This document shows, piece after piece, positions 30,419 to 46,807 of a DNA stretch of 64,000 nt. This stretch comes from Arcobacter aquimarinus (GTDB taxonomy: Bacteria > Campylobacterota > Campylobacteria > Campylobacterales > Arcobacteraceae): assembly GCF_013177635.1 (NCBI RefSeq), contig NZ_CP030944.1, forward strand, positions 372,001-436,000, in the 5' to 3' direction. Numbering within the stretch: position 1 is the stretch's first letter; every line of letters begins with the position of its first letter. The notes beneath the pieces were generated by a model. The model was not told the DNA's origin and searched no databases. It was given only the letters and a program-made list of their open reading frames with translations. The position numbers and the translations under genes are program-made.

Positions 30419-30805
30419 TTATTTTCCTGTATTATCAAATGTTTTAGCAAAACCTTCTAAATCTTTCTTCTTTAAATCACCATTGTAAACCATATTTGAC
30501 ACATCAATAGTTTTATCATTTAAAACTTTTGGAACGGCATCTGCATTTTTTAAAACTTCCATATGAGAACTTAGTTCTTCTTCACTATATGACATTTGCA
30601 TATCAGCAGTTATTACATAAGGAATAGATTCAATAACTTTTAGTTTTTTTAACTCTTCTTGAACACCATTTCCTTCTATTGTTATAATTATTCTTCCTTT
30701 TTCATCATGCATATGATAATCACAAACACCAGATTTTTTCAAAGATTCAACTACTTCTTCCACATGTTTTGGAAGAGTTTGTATTACGATACTTGAGATA
30801 TTCAT
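30419..30805 (-). CDS. napD: NapD, NapA maturation chaperone
   Basis: Cytoplasmic chaperone that binds the Tat signal of NapA. The 128-residue protein has the NapD start SSIVIQTLPKHVEEVVESLK and GRIIITIEGNG, a ferredoxin-like fold. The C-terminal third (after about 85) is an extension beyond short NapD proteins. It lies at the expected place, after napL, in a Campylobacterota-type nap operon. Confidence 0.85.
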   Translation of the reverse strand: MNISSIVIQTLPKHVEEVVESLKKSGVCDYHMHDEKGRIIITIEGNGVQEELKKLKVIESIPYVITADMQMSYSEEELSSHMEVLKNADAVPKVLNDKTIDVSNMVYNGDLKKKDLEGFAKTFDNTGK

Positions 30806-30820
30806 TTTTTTTCCTTTTAT

Positions 30821-31777
30821 TTAGTTAATTTTATAATAGTTTATTTGTTCATGGTCACTTGTAACAAATAATTCTTTTTCATTTATAAACAAAATATTTG
30901 TCAAAGTTGCTCTATTTTGTTTTAGTTTAAAAAGTTCTTTTTTTGTATCAACTTCAAAGATTGTTACATTATTTTCTTCATCACTTGCAACTGCTGCTAA
31001 TTTCCCACTTGGACTTAATCCTGCACTATATATTAAAAAAGGAAAAGTTTTATAATAAGATATCTTTCCATTTAAACTATAAATTGCTGCTTTTCTATCT
31101 TGTCCAGCTGTTAATATAATCTCATTTTTTATATCAACTTGAAAAACATTATCAAGATTTTGTCCTTCAAAATTTTTTATTAATTTAAAAGTTTTCGTAT
31201 CAATCATAGTTAAAATACCACTTTCATCACTTATTAAAACTTTTGTTTTATCTCTTGTAAGTTTGAAATTTGAAAATTTAGACTGAGAGATTTGAGTTTC
31301 ATTTAAAATTTTTTTATTTTTTATATCATAAAGATAGATTTGATTTGAAAGTAAGGCATAAATTATATGATTTTCATCTAAAAATTTTGCACGAGCTATA
31401 AATAATCTATTTTCATCAGAAATTACTCTTTTTAATTTTCCATCAGTATAAATATCGATATTTCTTCCTCCTTTTTCTCCTTGAGAAAGAATCAAAATAT
31501 TATTAGCTAAAACATCTACACTATAAATTTTAGAGTCAATAGTATCTTGCATAAAATCTTTTATTTGAGGAACTTTTATAGATGATGTTTTTATTTTAGT
31601 ATTAATATCAAAAATATCTACACTTGAAGCTGTTGTTGCTACATAAAGAAGGTTATTTTTTAGTACTAAATCTGTAACTCCACCACTTGCAATTAGTGAA
31701 TAGTTTGGTTCTAAATCATAAGCTTTTAGATTTAGTAAAAAAATGAAAGATAAAAATAATATTTTAAAAATTTTCAT
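30821..31777 (-). CDS. napL: NapL-type periplasmic WD40-like protein
   Basis: A 318-residue protein with a signal peptide (MKIFKILFLSFIFLLNLKAY) followed by repeated beta-propeller-like blades (VYVATTASSVDIFDI-type repeats, KLAAVASDEENNVTIFEVDT near the end). NapL is specific to Campylobacterota nap operons and has an accessory role of unclear mechanism. I choose the ATG at 31777 (AAGGGAAAAT upstream). A longer frame to 31819 would run into napF and hide the signal peptide. Confidence 0.8.
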   Translation of the reverse strand: MKIFKILFLSFIFLLNLKAYDLEPNYSLIASGGVTDLVLKNNLLYVATTASSVDIFDINTKIKTSSIKVPQIKDFMQDTIDSKIYSVDVLANNILILSQGEKGGRNIDIYTDGKLKRVISDENRLFIARAKFLDENHIIYALLSNQIYLYDIKNKKILNETQISQSKFSNFKLTRDKTKVLISDESGILTMIDTKTFKLIKNFEGQNLDNVFQVDIKNEIILTAGQDRKAAIYSLNGKISYYKTFPFLIYSAGLSPSGKLAAVASDEENNVTIFEVDTKKELFKLKQNRATLTNILFINEKELFVTSDHEQINYYKIN

Positions 31778-31785
31778 ATTTTCCC

Positions 31786-32277
31786 TTATTTTATAATTTT
31801 TATAGCATCTGTTGGACAAACTTTAATACAAAAGCCACAAGAAGTACAGTTGTTATTTATACTTGGTCTAAACATAGCTAAAAAATCTATAGCTTTATCT
31901 AAACATGGGTCTTTACACGAAAAACACATAGTTTGATTCCATGATAAACATGATAATACATCTATTTCTATTTTAATATCAATATTTTTCTTATTTTCTA
32001 TTTTTAAAACTTCTTTTGGACAAATTTCTGCACATTTATCGCAATATGTACATCCTGAAATTGAAAAATCTAATTTTGGTGTATTATCTTCTTGAATTAC
32101 TATTATATTTTCTTCACAAACAGTACTACATAAACCTTCACAATCTATACAGTTTGTCAAAAAAAGTGACTCACTATTTTCATTTTCAAAATAAGGAGGT
32201 CTAATAATTTTCTCTTGCTTCTCTTTTTTTGAAAAAGGAAAAGCAAGAGAACCAAAAAGTTCTCTTCTTTTCATCAT
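31786..32277 (-). CDS. napF: NapF ferredoxin-type protein
   Basis: Cytoplasmic iron-sulfur protein of the Nap system, thought to help NapA maturation. The 163-residue protein has an early RRELFGSLAF segment and Cys motifs CIDCEGLCSTVC (a variant spacing, near 43-54), CTYCDKCAEICP near 76, and CTSCGFCIKVCP near the C terminus. A further CFSCKDPC lies near 117. The first motif departs from the standard CxxCxxCxxxCP. It overlaps the napB stop by 4 bases. Confidence 0.88.
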   Translation of the reverse strand: MMKRRELFGSLAFPFSKKEKQEKIIRPPYFENENSESLFLTNCIDCEGLCSTVCEENIIVIQEDNTPKLDFSISGCTYCDKCAEICPKEVLKIENKKNIDIKIEIDVLSCLSWNQTMCFSCKDPCLDKAIDFLAMFRPSINNNCTSCGFCIKVCPTDAIKIIK

Positions 32278-32873
32278 TTTTTCTTTAATGTATCTAAATC
32301 TTCTGTTAGAACTTCATGCCAGTTTGATTTTACTTTTCCATCTTTATTTGTAAAATCAGCTTGGAAAGTATTTTCAACAGCTAACTCTCCAGTACTTTGA
32401 GGAGCATGACAAGCATTACAATTGAATCTTGCGTTTGAAAGAGTATCAATAGGTTTAATTGAAACTTCATTTTTCATTACATCTGAACTCTTTTCAAATT
32501 TATCTCCATCTAACTTATGTTTTGGTCTAAAATCAATATAGTGTGATTTAGGAATAGGAGTTGCTCCCATAGATTCAGCAACAGCTGTATCATGACAACC
32601 AATACACGAATTATTTTGAGGAGTAATATCCAACATTCCTTCAACATCATGGGGAATCATAGGTGGTGCATTTTGATAAGCTCTATCTATTTTATATCCA
32701 CTCATAGGTTGAGATGTTCCATATTTTGTCTCATCAGGAGCAACTTTTTCTTCAGATAATAAATCTACTTTTCTTAAACCAATTGATTCATCATCAATAA
32801 CATTTTTTGTATTAGCAGCTATTAAAATTGATGCTGCTAATGATACTGCTAAAGTTAATTTACCTAACTTCAT
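32274..32873 (-). CDS. napB: NapB, dihaem cytochrome c subunit of nitrate reductase
   Basis: Periplasmic electron-transfer subunit that feeds NapA. The 199-residue protein has a signal peptide (LGKLTLAVSLAASILIAANT) and two haem c sites, CIGCH (near 90) and CNACH (near 152). His residues in IPHDVEG and PKSHYIDFRPKHK are candidate distal ligands. It overlaps napH by 14 bases and napF by 4. Confidence 0.95.
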   Translation of the reverse strand: MKLGKLTLAVSLAASILIAANTKNVIDDESIGLRKVDLLSEEKVAPDETKYGTSQPMSGYKIDRAYQNAPPMIPHDVEGMLDITPQNNSCIGCHDTAVAESMGATPIPKSHYIDFRPKHKLDGDKFEKSSDVMKNEVSIKPIDTLSNARFNCNACHAPQSTGELAVENTFQADFTNKDGKVKSNWHEVLTEDLDTLKKK

Positions 32874-33681
32874 TTTGTCTTTCCTTAATTAAATTTTTTA
32901 TTGAAAAATTAAGAGCATCATCATCACAAACTTCCACACATCTTCCACAGTTTGTACATTCACCACTTAATACAGGCATTGAAATTTTTGTAACCATGTG
33001 TAAAACTTGATTTTCAGGACAAACTTCTTTACATTTCATACACGCTGTACAATTAGGTGCATTATGATGAACTCTAATTAAACTAAATCTTCCAACTAGT
33101 GAATAAAATCCACCTAATGGACAAATATGTCCACACCAACCATTTTTTAATACAAATAAGTCAAAAAGAAATATCACAACTATTGTTGCCCAAGTAAAAC
33201 CCATTCCAAAGATGATTCCTCTATGAACCATAGATACAGGAGAAACTAATTCAAAGGCTGCAACTCCCATGAAAAAAGAGATGATTAAACTAATAATAAT
33301 TATCCAATATCTCATATTTCTTGATGCTGGTTGTTTTTTTTGAATTTGATTAAATCCAAATTTTCTTCTTAAATAGTTTGATAAATCAGTAATAATATTT
33401 ACAGGACAAACCCAAGAACAAAAAGCTCGACCTCCTATAATCATATAAAAAATTAAGATGAAAAAAGCTCCCAACAATAAATCAAAAGAGATAATAGCCC
33501 CTGCAAAAAACATTTGTAAAACAGCATAAGGATCACTTAATGGAATTGTATTTAAAAGTAATGATGAACTTAAATTTCCCATCAAAATATGTATTCCATA
33601 TACATTTGCAATTACATATAAAACCATGATAGATATTTGTGTGATTCTTCTTGCTATTAAAAATCTATATTTTTTTATCAT
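32860..33681 (-). CDS. napH: NapH, quinol-oxidising membrane iron-sulfur protein
   Basis: Membrane protein that passes electrons from menaquinol to NapG and then NapB in strains without NapC. The 273-residue protein has about four helices and the loop motifs CSWVCPVNIITD and CGHICPLGGFYSL. C-terminal ferredoxin motifs CTACMKCKEVCP and CTNCGRCVEVCD follow. It overlaps napG by 4 bases. No napC is present in the operon, which fits this route. Confidence 0.94.
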   Translation of the reverse strand: MIKKYRFLIARRITQISIMVLYVIANVYGIHILMGNLSSSLLLNTIPLSDPYAVLQMFFAGAIISFDLLLGAFFILIFYMIIGGRAFCSWVCPVNIITDLSNYLRRKFGFNQIQKKQPASRNMRYWIIIISLIISFFMGVAAFELVSPVSMVHRGIIFGMGFTWATIVVIFLFDLFVLKNGWCGHICPLGGFYSLVGRFSLIRVHHNAPNCTACMKCKEVCPENQVLHMVTKISMPVLSGECTNCGRCVEVCDDDALNFSIKNLIKERQNEVR

Positions 33682-34490
33682 TTTAATAAATCCTCCATAT
33701 CTTTAGAGTTATTTAAAGAATCAACAGCACTATCTTTACTAATTTTTGTTTTTGTAGTTTCTCCTAGAGCATTTTCTACTCTTTTTTGGTCTTCTTTATT
33801 CCAGCCTTGAACATAATGATCACCAACTTTCCCTAAAGCTATATTTCTAGGAAGTACAAAAATAGCTGCTTTTTGAGTAACACAAGCTTTTTCACATAAT
33901 CCACAACCAGTACAAGTATCTGCATGTACAACTGGTTTTAAAAAAGCGTGTTTCCCTGTTCTTTCATTTTTTGAATACTCAATACTAATAGCTTCTCCTA
34001 AAAGTGGACAAGCTCTATAGCAAGCATCACATTGAATACCCCAAAATGCGATACAAGAGTTATCATCTATAACAGCAACTCCCATTTGAGCTTTTGAAAT
34101 ATCAAGTTTTGCATTTTCATTTTGAACTGATTTTATATTTAGTGCATCTGTTGGACAAACAGGAACACATGGAATATCAGTACACATATAACAAGGAATT
34201 TCCCTTGGTATAAAAAATGGCGTTCCAAGAGGTTTATTATCTCCTGGTCTCGCTAGTTTTAAAGTATCAAAAGGGCAGGCTTCAACACACATTCCACATT
34301 TGATACACGTTGCTAAAAAATTTTCTTCTTTTAAAGCACCTGGTGGTCTTAAAATCAATGAACTAGCTTTTACTTCATCAACATAAGCACTCCAAGTTAA
34401 ACCACCAAGAATCGCTAAGCCAGTTGCCCTTGCAATTGTTAAAAAGAATTTTCTTCTTTCATTGGTTGGTAGGTTTTGTTCTGTTTTCAT
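33678..34490 (-). CDS. napG: NapG, periplasmic iron-sulfur protein
   Basis: A four-cluster ferredoxin working with NapH. The 270-residue protein has a Tat-type signal (ERRKFFLTIARATGLAILGG near residue 11). Cys motifs are CIKCGMCVEACP, CYMCTDIPCVPVCP, CIAFWGIQCDACYRACP and CTGCGLCEKAC. It lies 28 bases after napA in the usual A-G-H-B order. Confidence 0.94.
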   Translation of the reverse strand: MKTEQNLPTNERRKFFLTIARATGLAILGGLTWSAYVDEVKASSLILRPPGALKEENFLATCIKCGMCVEACPFDTLKLARPGDNKPLGTPFFIPREIPCYMCTDIPCVPVCPTDALNIKSVQNENAKLDISKAQMGVAVIDDNSCIAFWGIQCDACYRACPLLGEAISIEYSKNERTGKHAFLKPVVHADTCTGCGLCEKACVTQKAAIFVLPRNIALGKVGDHYVQGWNKEDQKRVENALGETTKTKISKDSAVDSLNNSKDMEDLLK

Positions 34491-34518
34491 CTTTTCTTCT
34501 TTATATTCTCTTTAAAGT

Positions 34519-37329
34519 TTATGCTTGATAAATTTTTACTGCACATTTTTTAAAGTCAGTTTGACCTGATTGCGGACAAGTGTAATCTGCACAAACTTTA
34601 TTGATAAATACTTTTTCATCAAACCAAGGAACAAATACTAAACCTCGACTTGGTCTATTTCTACCTCTTGTTTCAACTCTTGCTTTTACTTTTCCTCGTC
34701 TACTTTCAACCCAGCAAAGACTACCTTGTTTAACTCCATAAGTTTTTGCATCTTCTGGGTGCATATAACAAAGTGCTTCAGGAACTGCTCGATATAATTC
34801 AGGAACTCTCATCGTCATAGTTCCACTATGCCAGTGTTCTAAAACTCTTCCTGTGCTTAACCAAACTGGATACTCATTATCTGGAATTTCCGGTGGATCC
34901 ATATATGGTCTTGCAAAGATTTTTGCTTTGTTTTTTAGTGATTTTTTAGCTTGGTCTTTAACTCCAAGTAAATCACCTTGAGCTAACTCTTTTGCTAAAT
35001 GACCATAAAATGCAAAATCACTATTTGGATTTGCTTTTTTAGCATAAGGGTCATAAATAGTATTAAATCTCCATTGTGTCTCTTTTCCATCAACAACTGG
35101 CCATTTTAAACCTCTTACTTTATGATAAGTATCAAAATCAGCTAAATCGTGTGCATGACCTCTACCAAAATCAGCATACTCTTCAAATAGATATTTTTGA
35201 ATAAAGAATCCGTATCCTTTCCATGGTTTCCCATCACTACCAAGAACATTTCTTGAATCTCCAAAACCTTCAGTATTATCATATCCAGCTTGAATAGAAT
35301 CTTTATGGTCTAATTTATAAGATTTAGCTTTTTCATTTGCAAATAAGATTTCATACATTGTTGTATTTTCATCATAGCCCATAGCCTTTGCTGCTTCAAT
35401 TACATTTGGAAGTTTAGTTTCACCTTTTGTACTTGCAAGTGTTTGCTCACCCCATAAATCTTTTACTGTAAATCTTTTAGAAAGTTCAACCCATTGCCAA
35501 GTATCACTCATTGAATCACCAACAGGAACTACTTGTTGTCTCCAAAGTTGAGTTCTTCTTTCAGCATTTCCATATCCACCCCATTTTTCATAAATCATAG
35601 CAGATGGTAAGATAAGATCTGATACTTTTGCTGAAATTCCAGGATATCCATCACTTGTAACAATAAAATTATCCATTTCCCGTGCTGCTTTTACCCAATG
35701 TGTTGCACTTGCTGTATCTTGATATGGATTACAAACATTTACCCAAGCAAATTTAATATTTCCATCTTCAATATCTCTATGAATTTTCATAATATGTTGA
35801 GTACCTTTTGGATTTATAGTTCCAGCAGGAATATTCCAAGCTTTTTCTGTAACAGCTCTATCTTTTGGGTTTGCAACCATCATATCAGCTGGAAGTCTAT
35901 GTGTAAATGTTCCAACTTCTCTTGCTGTTCCACAAGCACTAGGTTGTCCTGTAAGTGAAAATGCTCCACTTCCTGGTTTAGCTTGTTTATTTAATAAAAA
36001 GTGAACGTTATATGAAAGTGTATTTACCCAAGTTCCACGTGTGTGTTGATTCATACCCATTGTCCAGAAACTTACAACTTTTCTATTTTTTTCAATATAC
36101 AAATCTGCTAAAGTTTGAAGTTTTTTCTTAAACTCTTCAATATCTTCATCAGGATTTCCTTTTGAAATTTTTGCCACATAATCAAGAGTATAAGGCTCTA
36201 AAGATTTTTTATACTCTTCAAAAGAGATTTCCCAGTGTGCTAATCCAGTATTTTTATTTACCATTTTATCACCAGCTTTATATCCATAAGGAGCAAGTGC
36301 TGGGGCTTCTGTATCTGAAACAATTTTTTCCATTTCTTTAGAAATAGTTTGCATCTCTAAATCAGAATATTTTCCATCTTTGATAGATTTTTCATCACTT
36401 CTTCTCATTCCATAACCAATATTTACAGGACTTGCTGCAAATACAATATGTTCTTTTACGAAATCCCAGTCAATTGATTCTGGATGATTATATACGATTT
36501 CTCTTGCTATATAATTCCAAATTGCAAGGTCAGTATTTGGAGTAAAAATAATTTCAATATCAGCTAAATCAGAAGTTCTGTGAGTATATGTTGAAAGATT
36601 GATAACTTTTACTTTTTCTGGATCACTTAATTTTCTATCTGTTACTCTTGACCATAAAATAGGGTGCATTTCTGCCATATTCGAACCCCAAGTTACAACT
36701 GTATCAGTTAATTCTATATCATCATAACAACCTGATGGTTCATCGATTCCAAAAGTTTGATAGAAACCGACAACTGCAGATGCCATACAGTGTCTTGCAT
36801 TAGGGTCAATTGCATTACTTCTAAATCCTGCTTTCATCATTTTTAATGCAGCATAACCTTCCATAATTGTATATTGACCTGAAGCAAAAATTCCAATTCC
36901 TTCAGGACCTTTTTCTTTAAGTGCTATTTTTATATGTTTTTCCATTTCATCAAAAGCTCTTTGCCAAGAAACAGGTGCAAAATCACCTTTTTTGTCAAAT
37001 TCACCCTTAGAATTAACTCTTAATAAAGGTTGTTTTAATCTATCAGCTCCATACATAATCTTTGCATTGAAGTAACCTTTTATACAATTAAGTCCTCTAT
37101 TTACAGGTGCTGCTGGGTCACCTTTTACTGCAACAATTTTACCTTCTTTTGTTGCAAGCATAATTCCACAACCAGTTCCACAAAATCGGCAAGCTGCCTT
37201 ATCCCATCTCCATCCACCTTCAGCTTGATTTGCTTGTGCTTGTAAGCTTGATGGTACACTCATACCAACAGCTGCTGCTGCACTTGCTGCTGCTGAGCTT
37301 TTTAGGAAGTCTCTTCTTGAAAGCGACAT
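34519..37329 (-). CDS. napA: NapA, periplasmic nitrate reductase catalytic subunit
   Basis: Molybdenum enzyme reducing nitrate to nitrite in the periplasm. The 936-residue protein begins with a Tat signal (SRRDFLK). [4Fe-4S] ligands are C47, C50, C54 and C82, and the probable Mo ligand Cys lies in [15 protein letters not shown] near residue 180. The C-terminal molybdopterin-binding domain includes [15 protein letters not shown]. The length is at the long end, typical of Campylobacterota NapA with inserts. An AAGGAG site precedes the ATG. It is first in the operon. Confidence 0.97.
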
Positions 37330-37360: not shown

Positions 37361-37409
37361 ACATCAAATTGTAGCTATAAAAAAAAGATTAATAATTGAC
37401 CTATGTCAA
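37361..37409 (-). promoter_or_regulatory. napA promoter with Crp/Fnr-type activator site
   Basis: The exact palindrome TTGAC-CTAT-GTCAA lies at 37396-37409. On the minus strand a TACAAT -10 box occupies 37373-37368, which predicts a start at about 37361. The palindrome centre (37402.5) is then at -41.5, the standard class II activator position. The half-site is TTGAC rather than the FNR TTGAT. Confidence 0.75.
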
Positions 37410-40369: not shown

Positions 40370-40398
40370 AAAGTAAGAGAGATTTTCTCTTACTTTTT
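40368..40398. terminator. Bidirectional terminator between dctM and sensor kinase
   Basis: AAAAAGTAAGAGA (40368-40380) pairs perfectly with TCTCTTACTTTTT (40386-40398) around GATTT. The A and T ends give a usable T-run on either strand between two convergent genes. Confidence 0.88.
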
Positions 40399-41956
40399 AA
40401 TTAATCTTAGGAATACAAATATAAAATTTTGCTCCAAGATTTGTATTTTTTACTTTTAAAATACCTTGCATATTTTTTTCTACAATTATTTTAGACATAT
40501 AAAGTCCAATACCAGTTCCATCACTTTTTGATTTTGTGGTAAAGTATGGTTCAAATATTTTATTTAAAGGTTCTACAAAAACACCACCACCATTATCTTC
40601 AATAGTTAAAATAATGTGTGTTTCATCTATTTTTGCTTCCATTTTAATTAGAGGATTTTTTATATTTTTTTCTATCAATATATCTTTTGCATTTTTTAGA
40701 ATATTTAGAATTACTTGTTGATATTCATTTAAATAGGTTTTTAAAGTAATATTATCATCAATATTAATCTCTACGTTTATATTATTATTCTGCAATCCAC
40801 TAGAAACAATTGTCATAATACTATTAATAACTTTATTTAAGTAAAACTCCTCTTTGTCTTTTTTGGGCATAAAAAAGTTTCTAAAATCATCAATAGTGTG
40901 AGACATATACTCTAAAACTTGGGTGGCTTCTTTGGATTTTTTATCCATTGTTTGACTATCAAGAGCATTTAAATCAAACTTAAATTTTATAAACATTAAA
41001 ATAGATGAAAGTTCACTTAATGGTTGTCTCCATTGGTGAGCAATATTTGAAATCATTTCACCTAAGGCAATTAATTTTGATTTTTGAATTAAAAGTTGTT
41101 CTTTTTCTCTATTTTTTTCAATCTCAATTTTTACTTTTTCTTCTAATGATTGATTTAAAGACTCAAGTTCATTTGCATTTTTTCTAACTTTTTCTTCATA
41201 ATTTTTTAATATATCATCAATTTTTTGAGAAATTACTATTGAAATTAATATAGCAATAGATAAAAACATCAAGAATAAAACTACATTTTGTACAATTTGT
41301 TTTTTTATTCTTTGTTTTAAATCTTCTCTTTTTAGTTGAATTTCATTTTCCATATCATCTGTATAAATACCAACAGCGATAATCCAGTTAAATCTTTCAT
41401 AATATTTAAAATAAGATAATTTATATTGTGATTTATCAGAATTTGGTTTTTTATAGGCATATAAAGTATAAGATTCACCTTTTTGTCTAATATCTTTCAT
41501 AAAATCTTCTCTAAACTTTTTACCATCTGTATCTTTATAATTTGTTGAAATTAATCTTCCAACTAAATCAGGTCGGTTTGGATTTACAACTAAAACTGCA
41601 AAATCATCTCCTCCTTGCATATTTATTACATCATAAGCAAAAAAATAATTACTTTTGTTCTCTTCAAAATTGATATTATTAAGAAGTTTTATAGCATCTG
41701 TTTTTAATTCTTCATCTTCTAAATTTGATTTTGCAATATTATAATTTAAAATATCAATAACTGTATGAACCTCTTTTTTTAGGGTCTTTTTTTTCTCTTG
41801 ATGAAACTCTTTTACAAATTTATCCATTTCAACTTCAAAATTATCATAGGTATTAGTTACATAAAAGTAAGAGATAGCAAAAATCATTGAGGACATAATA
41901 ATAATAAATGTAAAAATGATGATTTTTGATAGATTTTTTTCTATACTATAGTTCAA
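40397..41956 (-). CDS. Cache-domain sensor histidine kinase (DctS-like)
   Basis: A membrane kinase of 519 residues: helix 1 (about 10-31), a periplasmic Cache domain (YFFAYDVIN, FNWIIAVGIYTDDMENEI), helix 2 (about 222-245), a coiled coil, then the kinase. The phospho-His lies in EMISNIAHQWRQPLSELSSI near 310. ATP-binding boxes are NILKNAKDIL, EDNGGGV and GTGIGLYMSKIIVEK. It ends at the dctM terminator and is divergent from its partner regulator. Inference: it senses dicarboxylates and controls dctPQM. Confidence 0.88.
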   Translation of the reverse strand: MNYSIEKNLSKIIIFTFIIIMSSMIFAISYFYVTNTYDNFEVEMDKFVKEFHQEKKKTLKKEVHTVIDILNYNIAKSNLEDEELKTDAIKLLNNINFEENKSNYFFAYDVINMQGGDDFAVLVVNPNRPDLVGRLISTNYKDTDGKKFREDFMKDIRQKGESYTLYAYKKPNSDKSQYKLSYFKYYERFNWIIAVGIYTDDMENEIQLKREDLKQRIKKQIVQNVVLFLMFLSIAILISIVISQKIDDILKNYEEKVRKNANELESLNQSLEEKVKIEIEKNREKEQLLIQKSKLIALGEMISNIAHQWRQPLSELSSILMFIKFKFDLNALDSQTMDKKSKEATQVLEYMSHTIDDFRNFFMPKKDKEEFYLNKVINSIMTIVSSGLQNNNINVEINIDDNITLKTYLNEYQQVILNILKNAKDILIEKNIKNPLIKMEAKIDETHIILTIEDNGGGVFVEPLNKIFEPYFTTKSKSDGTGIGLYMSKIIVEKNMQGILKVKNTNLGAKFYICIPKIN

Positions 41957-42022
41957 AATAACCCCTTAATTAGCAATGATTTGCTATGATAACATATCTT
42001 TTCTAATAGGGATTTTTATAAT

Positions 42023-42724
42023 ATGAAAAATAATTCATTAAGTAAACTTTGTGCTTTTACTGTTTTGTATGTTGAAGATGAAGATGGAATTAGAAATAAT
42101 ATTGAAGAGATTCTAAAACATTTGTTTAAAGAAGTTTATAGTGCTAAAAATTGCAGTGAAGCATCTATTAAATATTTACAGTTTAAACCTGATTTAATTA
42201 TTACTGATATTAGAATGGGAAATGAAACAGGAATAGATTTTATTAAAAAAATTAGACAAACTGATTCAAAAACAAGAGTTATTATAACTTCTGCATATAC
42301 GGATTTGGAGTATTTATTAAAAGCTACAGAGTTGCATTTAGTAAAATATATCGTAAAACCCATAACAAATGATAATTTGATGGAAGCTTTAGAACTTTTT
42401 GTTAAATCTTTTGATGATAATAAAATATATACTTTGACACAAAATTGGTTTTTTGATTACACTAAATCAACGGTTTCAAATGGAAATGAAGATTTTCTTC
42501 TTACAAAAAAAGAGGCTATGTTTTTAAAATTACTTGTTAGTAAAAATAGAATAATTACTTATGAAGAGCTTGAAAATTCAATTTGGGATGATGACTCTGT
42601 TATGACAGCAAATGCAATGAGGCTTTTTATAAAGAATTTAAGAAAAAAATTGCCAGAAAATTTTTTAAAAAATGTTCAAGGAATAGGATATTATCACGAT
42701 AGTAAGGCTATTCAAGATTTATAA
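42023..42724 (+). CDS. OmpR-family response regulator (DctR-like)
   Basis: A 233-residue regulator. The receiver domain (about 10-125) has VLYVEDEDG for the acidic pocket, the phospho-Asp in LIITDIRM and the Lys in YIVKPIT. The winged-helix output domain (about 140-228) has KNRIITYEELENSIWDDD and an ANAMRLFIKNLRKKL recognition helix. It is divergent from the Cache kinase across 66 bases, and the two are probably partners in dicarboxylate control. Confidence 0.88.
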   Translation: MKNNSLSKLCAFTVLYVEDEDGIRNNIEEILKHLFKEVYSAKNCSEASIKYLQFKPDLIITDIRMGNETGIDFIKKIRQTDSKTRVIITSAYTDLEYLLKATELHLVKYIVKPITNDNLMEALELFVKSFDDNKIYTLTQNWFFDYTKSTVSNGNEDFLLTKKEAMFLKLLVSKNRIITYEELENSIWDDDSVMTANAMRLFIKNLRKKLPENFLKNVQGIGYYHDSKAIQDL

Positions 42725-43339: not shown

Positions 43340-44071
43340 TTAATTAAACCATTTAATATTTTCTCTTAAATTTACAACTTCTCCAATTATTATCATTACT
43401 GGAGTTGGTAGATTTTTTGAATCTTCTACTATGTTTTTAAGTGTAGAAACTACTACTTCTTGGTCTTTTGTTGTCCCTTTTGAAATTACAGCACATGGAT
43501 AGTTTTCACTTTTTCCAAGTGATATTAACTTTGAAGTAATAATCTCAAGATTATGATAACCCATTAAAAATACAATTGTTTCATCATTTAAAAAAGTTTT
43601 CCATTCTATTTGAGATATTTTCTTTTTTGGATTTTCATGACCTGTTACTACTCTAAAAGAAGTTGTTATTCCTCTATGGGTTACTGGAATTCCTGCATAC
43701 GCTGGAACAGCAATAGCTGAGCTGATTCCTGGGATTATTTCAAATTTTATATCTCTTTGCTGTAAATATAAAGCTTCTTCTCCTCCACGACCAAAAACAA
43801 AAGGATCACCACCTTTTAATCTTACTACATTTTCATATTTTAATGTTGCTTGATAAATTAATTCGTTTATTTCATCTTGAGGTAAAGTATGTTTTTTATC
43901 TTCTTTTCCAACATAGATTAAATCACAATCTTTTTTTACCATCTCTAAAATCTCTGGATTTACCAATCTATCATAGATTAAAACATCAGCATTTTGAATT
44001 ACTCTTAAGGCTTTTAAAGTAAGAAGTTCAATATCACCAGGACCAGCTCCTGTTAAATAAACTTTAGACAT
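43340..44071 (-). CDS. cobA: Uroporphyrinogen-III C-methyltransferase
   Basis: Makes precorrin-2 from uroporphyrinogen III using SAM, for sirohaem or cobalamin. The 243-residue protein is a stand-alone methyltransferase (not fused to CysG). Motifs are VYLTGAGPGDIELLTLKALR at the N terminus, RLKGGDPFVFGRGGEEA near 82-98 and PVTHRGITTSF near 132. A TATAAT in 44072-44133 suggests its own promoter. It also follows the sensor-like gene on the same strand. Sirohaem supply would suit nitrite or sulfite reduction. Confidence 0.93.
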   Translation of the reverse strand: MSKVYLTGAGPGDIELLTLKALRVIQNADVLIYDRLVNPEILEMVKKDCDLIYVGKEDKKHTLPQDEINELIYQATLKYENVVRLKGGDPFVFGRGGEEALYLQQRDIKFEIIPGISSAIAVPAYAGIPVTHRGITTSFRVVTGHENPKKKISQIEWKTFLNDETIVFLMGYHNLEIITSKLISLGKSENYPCAVISKGTTKDQEVVVSTLKNIVEDSKNLPTPVMIIIGEVVNLRENIKWFN

Positions 44072-44133: not shown

Positions 44134-45141
44134 TTATGATGATTTCATAGTATTACAAGTTTGTAAAATTTTATCTAATTCATTTTTTAATTCTTGAAGT
44201 CTTTTAGTTGAATTTATTAAATATTCTTGAGATTGAATCACTATATCTTCACTTTTATTCAATTGTTTTGATAAATCATTTGAATTTGTTAATTCATTTA
44301 TAACCTTATCAAATTCATCTGTTAATTCTTCAAGTTTTAAAGAAGCATTTTTAGAATATTCAATAGCATTTGTTGAATAGCTCATTACTGAATTTATTTT
44401 ATTTATGAAATGATTTACTGTTTTAGTTGCTTCAACTATTTCATTTTCTCCATCAATTTTTATTGGAGTTAGAGGTTCATTTATATTTTGTTCAATTACT
44501 TTTTTTGACTCTTCTAAAAACTTCTTAGCTTGTTCTTCCATAGTTTTTAATTCAAAAAAACTATAAGTTATTAATAAGATTAATAATAAAGCAAAAAAGT
44601 ATTGAATATATTTTAGTTGCGTACTTTTTTCTTCACTGTGCTTAGTATACATAGATACTAAATTATCTATCTCTTCTAATAAAGTAGGGTTAGTTAGATA
44701 AATAGTATCAATTAATTTTTTTAAAGATAAATTTGTAAAAGAGTCATTTTTTTGATTTAACTCTTTAAAATATTCTATATTTTTATGAAAACTTTTCCAC
44801 AAAATTTCAACTTTCATCAATTGTTTTGCTATTTCATCCGTTGGAGCTTTCATAATACCTGATAATTGATTTCCATCTCTCAAAGAGTTAAGATTATAAA
44901 TAAATTCTGTAGTTGAATTTTCAAGTTCTGAAAATGAAGCTTCTTTATTTTGATATAAATAAAAAATATTTTTTGTAATATTTTGGCTTAACATTCTTTG
45001 TTTTCCTGCAATATTTATAATTAAGGCATCTTTTTCATTTTTGTTATTTAAATATATAGTTGTTGTTATTATACTTGTCATTAAAATAAAAAATAGTATT
45101 CCTATTGATTTTATTTTAGTACTTATCCTATTTTTTTTCAT
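44134..45141 (-). CDS. Membrane protein with PilJ/NarX-type sensor domain, no kinase
   Basis: A 335-residue protein: helix 1 (about 11-31), an extracytoplasmic helical domain of about 150 residues, helix 2 (about 180-200), then a linker and a coiled coil to the end. Residues 42-53, INIAGKQRMLSQ, match the PilJ/NarX-type ligand-binding box (INLAGxxRM in nitrate sensors). No His-kinase, cyclase or chemoreceptor output domain is present. The start overlaps the Crp/Fnr regulator's stop by 4 bases. Nitrate or nitrite sensing is inferred from the motif and from the neighbouring sirohaem gene. Confidence 0.82.
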   Translation of the reverse strand: MKKNRISTKIKSIGILFFILMTSIITTTIYLNNKNEKDALIINIAGKQRMLSQNITKNIFYLYQNKEASFSELENSTTEFIYNLNSLRDGNQLSGIMKAPTDEIAKQLMKVEILWKSFHKNIEYFKELNQKNDSFTNLSLKKLIDTIYLTNPTLLEEIDNLVSMYTKHSEEKSTQLKYIQYFFALLLILLITYSFFELKTMEEQAKKFLEESKKVIEQNINEPLTPIKIDGENEIVEATKTVNHFINKINSVMSYSTNAIEYSKNASLKLEELTDEFDKVINELTNSNDLSKQLNKSEDIVIQSQEYLINSTKRLQELKNELDKILQTCNTMKSS

Positions 45142-45803
45142 ACAGCAATTCCTTTGAAAATTGAACTTAAAGCATTTTGATTTATTATTACAATATCACC
45201 ATTTTCTATATTTATTATCTCTTCTCTTGAGAGTTTTTTTAAAACTCTTGATAATGTTTCTGGCTGAATATGTAACATAAAAGAGACCTCTTGTCTTTTT
45301 AGTTTGTTAAACATTTCCAAATCTTGATTTAACATAAAAGCAACTTTTGCAGTTGCATCAAAAACTAACTCTCTGTTTATAATACATTGTAGTTGTTGAG
45401 TTTTATTTAATAGATTTTCCATTAACTCTTTAGTTAAAATATTTTTGGATAAAAAGTATTCATAAAGTTTTTCAAAATTCACAGATAATATAGTTGATTC
45501 ATCTATAAATTCTGCATTAGAGAAACAGTAAATATCATTACTATTTAAAGATGAAAGTTCACTTATCATAGAATTTTTATAAACGTGATATAAAAAAATC
45601 TCATTTCCAAATTTATCAAATTTATATATTTTAAGTAATCCATCAACTAAAAAAAGAAGATTTTGATTAACTTCACTTTCGTAAAATAATATAGATTTAC
45701 TAGAGTATTTAGAAATAGAAGAAAATGAAGCAATTATTGATAGTTGTTCTTCATTTAAATTATTAAAAAAACTTATTTTTTTGATGGTTTCTACTAAGCT
45801 CAC
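45138..45803 (-). CDS. Crp/Fnr-family transcriptional regulator
   Basis: A 221-residue regulator: an N-terminal cyclic-nucleotide-type beta-barrel (about 15-115), a dimer helix and a winged helix. The recognition helix PETLSRVLKKL (about 180-195) keeps the E-x-x-S-R pattern that reads TTGA half-sites in FNR-type proteins. The N terminus lacks the Cys cluster of oxygen-sensing FNR, so another signal is expected. It starts with GTG (ACAAGGTAACAC upstream). It is co-translated with the sensor-like membrane protein. The napA promoter palindrome is a candidate target. Confidence 0.87.
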   Translation of the reverse strand: MSLVETIKKISFFNNLNEEQLSIIASFSSISKYSSKSILFYESEVNQNLLFLVDGLLKIYKFDKFGNEIFLYHVYKNSMISELSSLNSNDIYCFSNAEFIDESTILSVNFEKLYEYFLSKNILTKELMENLLNKTQQLQCIINRELVFDATAKVAFMLNQDLEMFNKLKRQEVSFMLHIQPETLSRVLKKLSREEIINIENGDIVIINQNALSSIFKGIAV

Positions 45804-45889: not shown

Positions 45890-46807
45890 ATGAATTTTAA
45901 AAAATATATAAAAGCTGTAGGTACAGGTCCAAAAGGAAATAAAGATTTAACTACAGATGAAGTATCAGATGCAATTGAACAAATTTTAACAAATAAAGCA
46001 ACTCAAGCACAAATAGGAGCATTTTTAATAGCTTGGAGAACAAAACTTGAAACAAATGATGAATTAAAAGGTGCTATTATTGCACTTAGAAAATTTATGA
46101 AATTTAAAGAAATAAAAGATTCTATTGAGCTTGGTTATTCATATGATGGAAGATGTGAAAATCCATTTTTATTTCCACTTTTTGAGAATATTTTAGAAGA
46201 GTTTTATAAAAAAAATTCAGATATAAGAAGATTAAATTTAGTTATTTCGGGTGATTTTTTACAACCTGCAAAAGTTGGAATCACAACAAAAGAGATTTTT
46301 ACAAATATTGACAAAGGTCAATATATTCATTTTTTTGATAGGGTAGAATACTTAAAGGAGTTGAGTGATATTACACAAATTCGTCATGAGTTGGGTTTAA
46401 GAACAGCTTTTAATACTGTTGAAAAACTTTTAAATCCAAGTCTTAGTGAATATGGAGTAACAACAGCATTTCACAAGCCTTATGTTCAAAAATATTTAGA
46501 TATTTTTGCTCCATATTTTAAAGAAATTGTTGTTGTAAAAGCAAGTGAAGGAAGTCCTGAAGTATTTAAAGATGGAAAGTTTTGGAAAATGCAAGATGGA
46601 AATATAATAGAAGAGAGTTTTTGTTTAAAAGATTATGGAATAACTTATGATAAAGAGTTTGAAAATATAACTTTGGAAGAGTCTTTAAATATAGTTAAAA
46701 ATCCTGATGAACAGATTTTAAAACTTGCTAGATTTAATGTTGCTTTATATCTTTTATTTTCAAAAAGAGTTGCTTCGTTAGATGAAGCATGGCAAAGACT
46801 AAACTAA
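45890..46807 (+). CDS. YbiB/TrpD2-like glycosyltransferase-fold protein
   Basis: A 305-residue protein related to anthranilate phosphoribosyltransferase (family 3 glycosyltransferase fold) of the YbiB group. The N-terminal helical part reads LTTDEVSDAIEQILTNKATQ then AQIGAFLIAWRTK. The glycine-rich PRPP loop of true TrpD is not intact (ELGYSYDGRCENP takes its place). YbiB proteins bind DNA rather than act in tryptophan synthesis. It lies 24 bases before moaA and is probably co-transcribed with it. Confidence 0.75.
   Translation: MNFKKYIKAVGTGPKGNKDLTTDEVSDAIEQILTNKATQAQIGAFLIAWRTKLETNDELKGAIIALRKFMKFKEIKDSIELGYSYDGRCENPFLFPLFENILEEFYKKNSDIRRLNLVISGDFLQPAKVGITTKEIFTNIDKGQYIHFFDRVEYLKELSDITQIRHELGLRTAFNTVEKLLNPSLSEYGVTTAFHKPYVQKYLDIFAPYFKEIVVVKASEGSPEVFKDGKFWKMQDGNIIEESFCLKDYGITYDKEFENITLEESLNIVKNPDEQILKLARFNVALYLLFSKRVASLDEAWQRLN

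Follow-up and report, generated by a model that had tools for sequence, protein, structure and literature searches.

A Crp/Fnr-family regulator gene is followed directly by the gene for a transmembrane receptor on the minus strand of the window, the 64,000-nucleotide stretch of the Arcobacter aquimarinus genome that was analyzed. The pair, its parts and the neighboring genes to which it was related are as follows.

45138..45803, minus strand: Crp/Fnr-family regulator, 221 aa, GTG start, NssA orthologue as judged by sequence comparison (exact coordinates)
44134..45141, minus strand: kinase-less transmembrane receptor, 335 aa, composed of TM1, PilJ sensor, TM2 and an output of HAMP-like segment plus N-helix
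45049..45105, minus strand: TM1, residues 13-31 (hydropathy; helix 5-64 in the AlphaFold model)
44983..45018, minus strand: N-box INIAGKQRMLSQ, residues 42-53 (published pattern)
44554..44610, minus strand: TM2, residues 178-196 (hydropathy and model)
44143..44544, minus strand: cytoplasmic output region, residues 200-333 (homology to HAMP and first signalling helix; MCP tip absent)
44218..44253, minus strand: conserved output motif SEDIVIQSQEYL, residues 297-308 (family alignment)
43340..44071, minus strand: SUMT (uroporphyrinogen-III C-methyltransferase, a sirohaem enzyme), downstream neighbor
30419..37329, minus strand: nap cluster (NapA, NapG, NapH, NapB, NapF, NapL, NapD), predicted main target
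37396..37409, strand not assigned: predicted Crp/Fnr operator TTGACCTATGTCAA upstream of napA

The stop codon of the regulator overlaps the ATG of the receptor by 4 bases (ATGA, 45138-45141), in agreement with the GTG-started Crp/Fnr gene and 4-base overlap described in the initial annotation. Sirohaem synthesis had also been placed next door, and the SUMT gene adjoins the pair as described. The nap cluster lies about 7 kb from the pair. Positions 40397-42724 hold a Cache-domain histidine kinase, a divergently oriented response regulator and transporter-like genes, with no sign of a tie to the pair.

Sensor and output regions of the receptor

Pfam placed a PilJ domain (PF13675) at residues 30-126 of the receptor (E 1.8e-21, 76.7 bits; cutoff 26.6), between the hydrophobic helices at residues 13-31 and 178-196. 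The sequence INIAGKQRMLSQ within this domain fits the published nitrate N-box, [IVL]-[ND]-x-A-G-x-Q-R-M-L-[ST]-Q, at every position (PMC6381276). The initial annotation had proposed a two-helix membrane protein with a ligand box of the NarX/PilJ type in its outer domain, and both points were upheld by the two helices, the exact N-box match and the above-cutoff PilJ domain. A second PF13675 protein was not found in the 2.52-Mb A. aquimarinus genome.

When the AlphaFold model of the receptor was compared with solved structures using Foldseek, the best PDB matches were McpN (6GCV) and NarQ (5jeq/5iji). McpN was the top match (E 2.6e-4, TM by target 0.80-0.82), with a four-helix fold like that of the predicted model, and NarQ fragments reached TM by target values of up to 0.77 over about 250 columns; the mean pLDDT of the model is 78, with low confidence at the output end. 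McpN binds nitrate only (PMC6381276). Among relatives of the window receptor, tandem PilJ domains with two N-boxes are found in many, and G-x-x-R is retained by nearly all nap-type pairs. At one locus (L233:7258-9336) the pair keeps tandem PilJ domains in which both N-boxes are degenerate or lost, and nap genes were not found in that stretch.

Neither the window receptor nor any of 32 aligned family members gave a HisKA/HATPase or other kinase match in Pfam; a weak MCPsignal match (E 0.0036) was seen in one member. Structure comparison of the receptor model likewise revealed no kinase, and a hidden kinase domain, which by the initial annotation would have refuted its proposal if shown by a profile search of the C-terminal 130 residues, was ruled out by these two kinds of search. 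CheZ-like, FlgN-like and other weak Pfam matches of the helical parts were judged to be coiled-coil noise.

A profile of the receptor cytoplasmic region was run against 249 genomes. Proteins of the pair ranked first, and the weaker matches examined were all chemoreceptors. The chemoreceptor alignments cover HAMP and the helix that follows it, ahead of the CheA/CheW-binding tip; the receptor itself ends ahead of the MCPsignal hairpin tip. Since only HAMP and the first helix align, the receptor looks like a chemoreceptor cut before the tip. As judged from these alignments, its output is homologous to HAMP plus the first signalling helix of Campylobacterota chemoreceptors. Of the earlier description of this region as only a coiled coil without a kinase, the absence of a kinase therefore stands, but the view of it as merely a coiled coil does not.

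Conservation of the pair and identity of the regulator

Within the family of the window receptor, a PilJ gene lies directly behind a Crp/Fnr gene at all 30 of 30 loci. The comparison of gene neighborhoods across Campylobacterota that had been suggested in the initial annotation found the adjacency to be kept in a wider set, with 134 of 154 PilJ-type ORFs (150 loci) directly following a Crp/Fnr gene; loci are shared in part between the collections, and these pairing counts are not independent. Contig ends, broken reading frames or a miscalled start account for six of the 20 unpaired ORFs; the other 14 encode different PilJ proteins that lack the output motif, one of them annotated as PAS-GGDEF-EAL. 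The junction between the two genes is an overlap or gap of a few bases in nearly all lineages, and named members of the pair belong to Helicobacter, Sulfurospirillum, Sulfurimonas, Arcobacter and Aliarcobacter. Chance adjacency was ruled out by this conservation.

Distances between Crp proteins were correlated with those between receptors (r 0.80; partial r 0.69 after control for NapA), and the co-evolution holds after control for NapA and NosZ. Co-transcription and co-evolution fall short of proving physical contact.

Several other arrangements of these genes were observed. A PilJ-PAS-GGDEF-EAL protein is encoded near a Crp/receptor pair at L039:6866-9196. Orphan NssA-like Crp genes lie by nap at L264:4882-5538 and L265:5117-5812, in genomes (G261 and G010) where a receptor was not detected, which shows that the Crp can be retained in the absence of a receptor and suggests that it may work alone in some species. 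In another family (L266:5880-7400 and L267:5904-7460), a Crp of this group adjoins SUMT, as in the window, with no receptor.

The window regulator matched HTH_Crp_2 in Pfam (4.6e-8) and, just below cutoff, cNMP_binding (6.7e-6). Its HTH is of the E-x-x-S-R type, with the recognition helix QPETLSR, and its N-terminal beta-roll is intact. Cysteines are confined to residues 93 and 140, so the regulator is without an FNR cluster, confirming the lack of FNR-type Cys reported in the initial annotation. Its identification as FNR, an iron-sulfur oxygen sensor, was ruled out by the absence of an N-terminal Cys cluster. The cAMP-binding R-S-A motif of the beta-roll is missing from the window regulator and was found in 0 of 152 pair-linked Crps, which ruled out cAMP-CRP. 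In profile comparison its nearest relative of known structure is DNR, a Crp/Fnr protein that responds to NO.

Comparison with Wolinella succinogenes placed the regulator among characterized proteins. In one genome of the set (G167), NrfA is identical at 433 of 433 residues to PDB 1FS7, the Wolinella enzyme, and this genome was therefore assigned to W. succinogenes. It encodes three Crp/Fnr proteins, of which only NssA adjoins a receptor gene of this type. Published identities of NssA to the nap-side Crp of Nitrosophilus-like genomes follow a pattern of 44.8/29.2/26.1% (PMC11539149), and the corresponding values for the Crp preceding the tandem-PilJ receptor in G167 were 45/29/26%. The window Crp shares 43% identity with this nap-side Crp (NssA) and 33% and 23% with the other two, and in the tree the pair-linked Crps form a group apart from NssB and NssC (support 0.96). 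On the strength of these sequence comparisons, Wolinella NssA is the Crp of such a Crp/receptor pair and the window Crp is its orthologue.

The nitrate response of W. succinogenes is mediated by NssA, and the signals reported for NssA and NssB differ, being nitrate and NO, respectively (PMC6682613). W. succinogenes responds to nitrate and not to nitrite, which fits a McpN-type box; how NssA senses nitrate is described in the same review as needing further study (PMC8139620). The genetics of nap control by NssA on nitrate has been published for W. succinogenes only. The A. aquimarinus genome gave four Crp/Fnr matches, two of them with in-frame stops in the alignment; the related species A. butzleri is reported in a review to have no Crp/Fnr protein (PMC6682613).

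The nap operator and a paralogous nos-type module

In many relatives no more than about 1 kb separates napA from the pair, and sometimes the end of the nap cluster lies upstream instead. Gapped-palindrome enumeration of nap upstream regions recovered TGAC-N4-GTCA in 48 of 52 regions, against 0.1 expected. In nap genomes without the pair, the palindrome was present at 2 of 30 nap promoters, one of which adjoins an orphan NssA-like Crp; because these control genomes fall in few families, the result supports, but does not prove, a link between operator and pair. In 45 of 53 promoters a -10-like hexamer stands at offset 36 or 37, which puts the palindrome at -41.5 or -42.5, where class II activators of the Crp/Fnr family bind; the frequency of this arrangement disfavors chance as the origin of the spacing.

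The exact sequence TTGAC-N4-GTCAA occurs at two sites only in the A. aquimarinus genome. One of these, TTGACCTATGTCAA, lies 66 bases upstream of napA, and no other exact site was found ahead of a gene start in the window. It is centered at -41.5 relative to the transcription start predicted from the -10 box TACAAT. The second site in the genome, at 46308-46321, falls within a gene and was discounted. The receptor gene and napA of W. succinogenes are 885 bases apart, and two TTGAC-type sites stand side by side ahead of napA. NssB and NssC could be users of the nap operator as well.

A paralogous Crp/receptor pair was found directly upstream of clade II nosZ at 20 of 21 loci in Sulfurimonas-like genomes (L041, L042, L045, L070-L073, L075 and L214-L226), and TTGAC-N4-GTCAA is present upstream of nosZ in 19 of these 20. 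The N-box has been lost from the sensors of all 20 intact members, in which the G-x-x-R arrangement is gone, and a search for a conserved His or Cys in these sensors found none. The nap-type and nos-type receptors have a common output motif, whereas their sensors differ. The split between the two types is identical in the Crp and receptor trees (support 1.0), and the two genes were thus most simply duplicated as a unit. The nos-type receptor is a candidate sensor of N2O or NO.

Proposed signalling route and alternatives

Nitrate as the ligand of the window receptor is supported by the N-box, the matches of the predicted model to McpN and NarQ, the adjacency to nap, the common operator and the correspondence of the Crp to Wolinella NssA. 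We consider it probable that the Crp and the receptor constitute one signalling unit for periplasmic nitrate that operates by direct contact and activates nap. The suggestion in the initial annotation that the membrane protein may bind nitrate or nitrite and control the Crp/Fnr protein directly thereby gains partial support. The computed part of this account comprises the genes, domains, N-box, absent kinase, pairing, co-evolution, operator with its class II spacing, and orthology to NssA. From these we infer nitrate binding, dimerization and contact with the Crp, and published NssA genetics point to activation as the sign of regulation. Under this model, a dimeric receptor of chemoreceptor origin would bind nitrate at the PilJ N-box on the dimer axis. 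The signal would cross TM2 and the HAMP-like segment to the short cytoplasmic helical output, which has neither a CheA/CheW tip nor a kinase. This output would act on the NssA-type Crp, most simply by a contact that releases or activates it, and NssA would then bind TTGAC-N4-GTCAA at -41.5 and turn on napA transcription. Weighing against this model are the orphan NssA-like Crp genes, the 7 kb or so between pair and nap in the window, the potential use of the operator by NssB and NssC, and the L233 pair with its degenerate N-boxes.

Other readings of the locus relate the two proteins differently. The receptor might sense nitrate and reach the Crp indirectly, through full-length chemoreceptors or a histidine kinase, with the Crp merely co-transcribed; the chemoreceptor ancestry of the output region would suit such a route, and mixed receptor arrays are known in principle. 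We regard this as unlikely, since the relatives examined have no CheA/CheW tip, the A. aquimarinus genome has no other PilJ protein, and assessable receptors of this type are always behind a Crp gene. Crp-receptor co-evolution that persists after NapA and NosZ control, and an output motif common to receptors with differing sensors, also argue against it. That the Crp is an ordinary one-component regulator with its own signal (NO, haem or another effector), the receptor having a separate role, is consistent with the orphan NssA-like genes, the relationship to NO-responsive DNR and the intact beta-roll. We give this little credence given the tight junction of the two genes in nearly all lineages and the fully supported nap/nos split common to both trees. 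Further, NssA and NssB differ in signal (PMC6682613), and NssA alone among the three W. succinogenes Crps adjoins a receptor.

Direct coupling of receptor and Crp could also serve a physiological ligand other than nitrate, such as nitrite, another oxyanion or the membrane or redox state. NarX/NarQ sensors bind nitrite and sulfite in addition to nitrate (PMC6381276), and the N-box is gone in some relatives (L233 and the nos-type pairs). The exact N-box of the window receptor, its nap adjacency and the response of W. succinogenes to nitrate but not nitrite (PMC8139620) make a different ligand very improbable.

Several known systems come close to the proposed one. The Nss regulators of W. succinogenes, with NssA 43% identical to the window Crp, have a similar genomic context and operator type; however, the accessible literature makes no mention of a membrane receptor that would go with them, and the sensing step is called unknown (PMC8139620). 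McpN of Pseudomonas aeruginosa has the PilJ domain and exact N-box, but has a complete MCP signalling domain and functions in chemotaxis, whereas the window receptor is without the tip. The sensor, TM and HAMP layout of NarX/NarQ aligns over about 250 columns with the window receptor, which in contrast has no HisKA/HATPase or response regulator partner and is paired instead with a Crp/Fnr protein. In transmembrane anti-sigma systems such as FecR/FecI, and in Mlc-PtsG, a transcription factor in the cytoplasm is governed through contact with a membrane protein, with no phosphotransfer. These belong to other protein families, while the window pair combines a sensory receptor with a Crp/Fnr activator.

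The initial annotation had put the locus forward as a candidate new system. This does not hold for the regulator half, because it is an orthologue of NssA, but may for the receptor half and its coupling, of which the accessible literature seems to hold no account; a search of open papers, which did not extend to the original NssA study, turned up no previous report on the Crp/receptor pair. Campylobacterota are without NarP and FNR orthologues according to a review (PMC6682613), and the pair is a concrete candidate receptor for nitrate sensing in this group. If contact is confirmed, it would constitute a kinase-free route from the membrane to Crp/Fnr. More tentatively, and at somewhat less than even odds in our estimation, chemoreceptor-derived kinase-less receptors that directly switch Crp/Fnr proteins may represent a third transmembrane route, with paralogous nap-type (nitrate box) and nos-type (box lost; N2O or NO) modules. 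The nos-linked paralogue offers a testable lead on the sensing of N2O or NO, a control point of greenhouse-gas reduction. The nos-type pair is preceded (L041:4560-4997 and equivalents) by a further conserved protein, about 141-175 aa long, whose start resembles a signal peptide and which has no significant family match.
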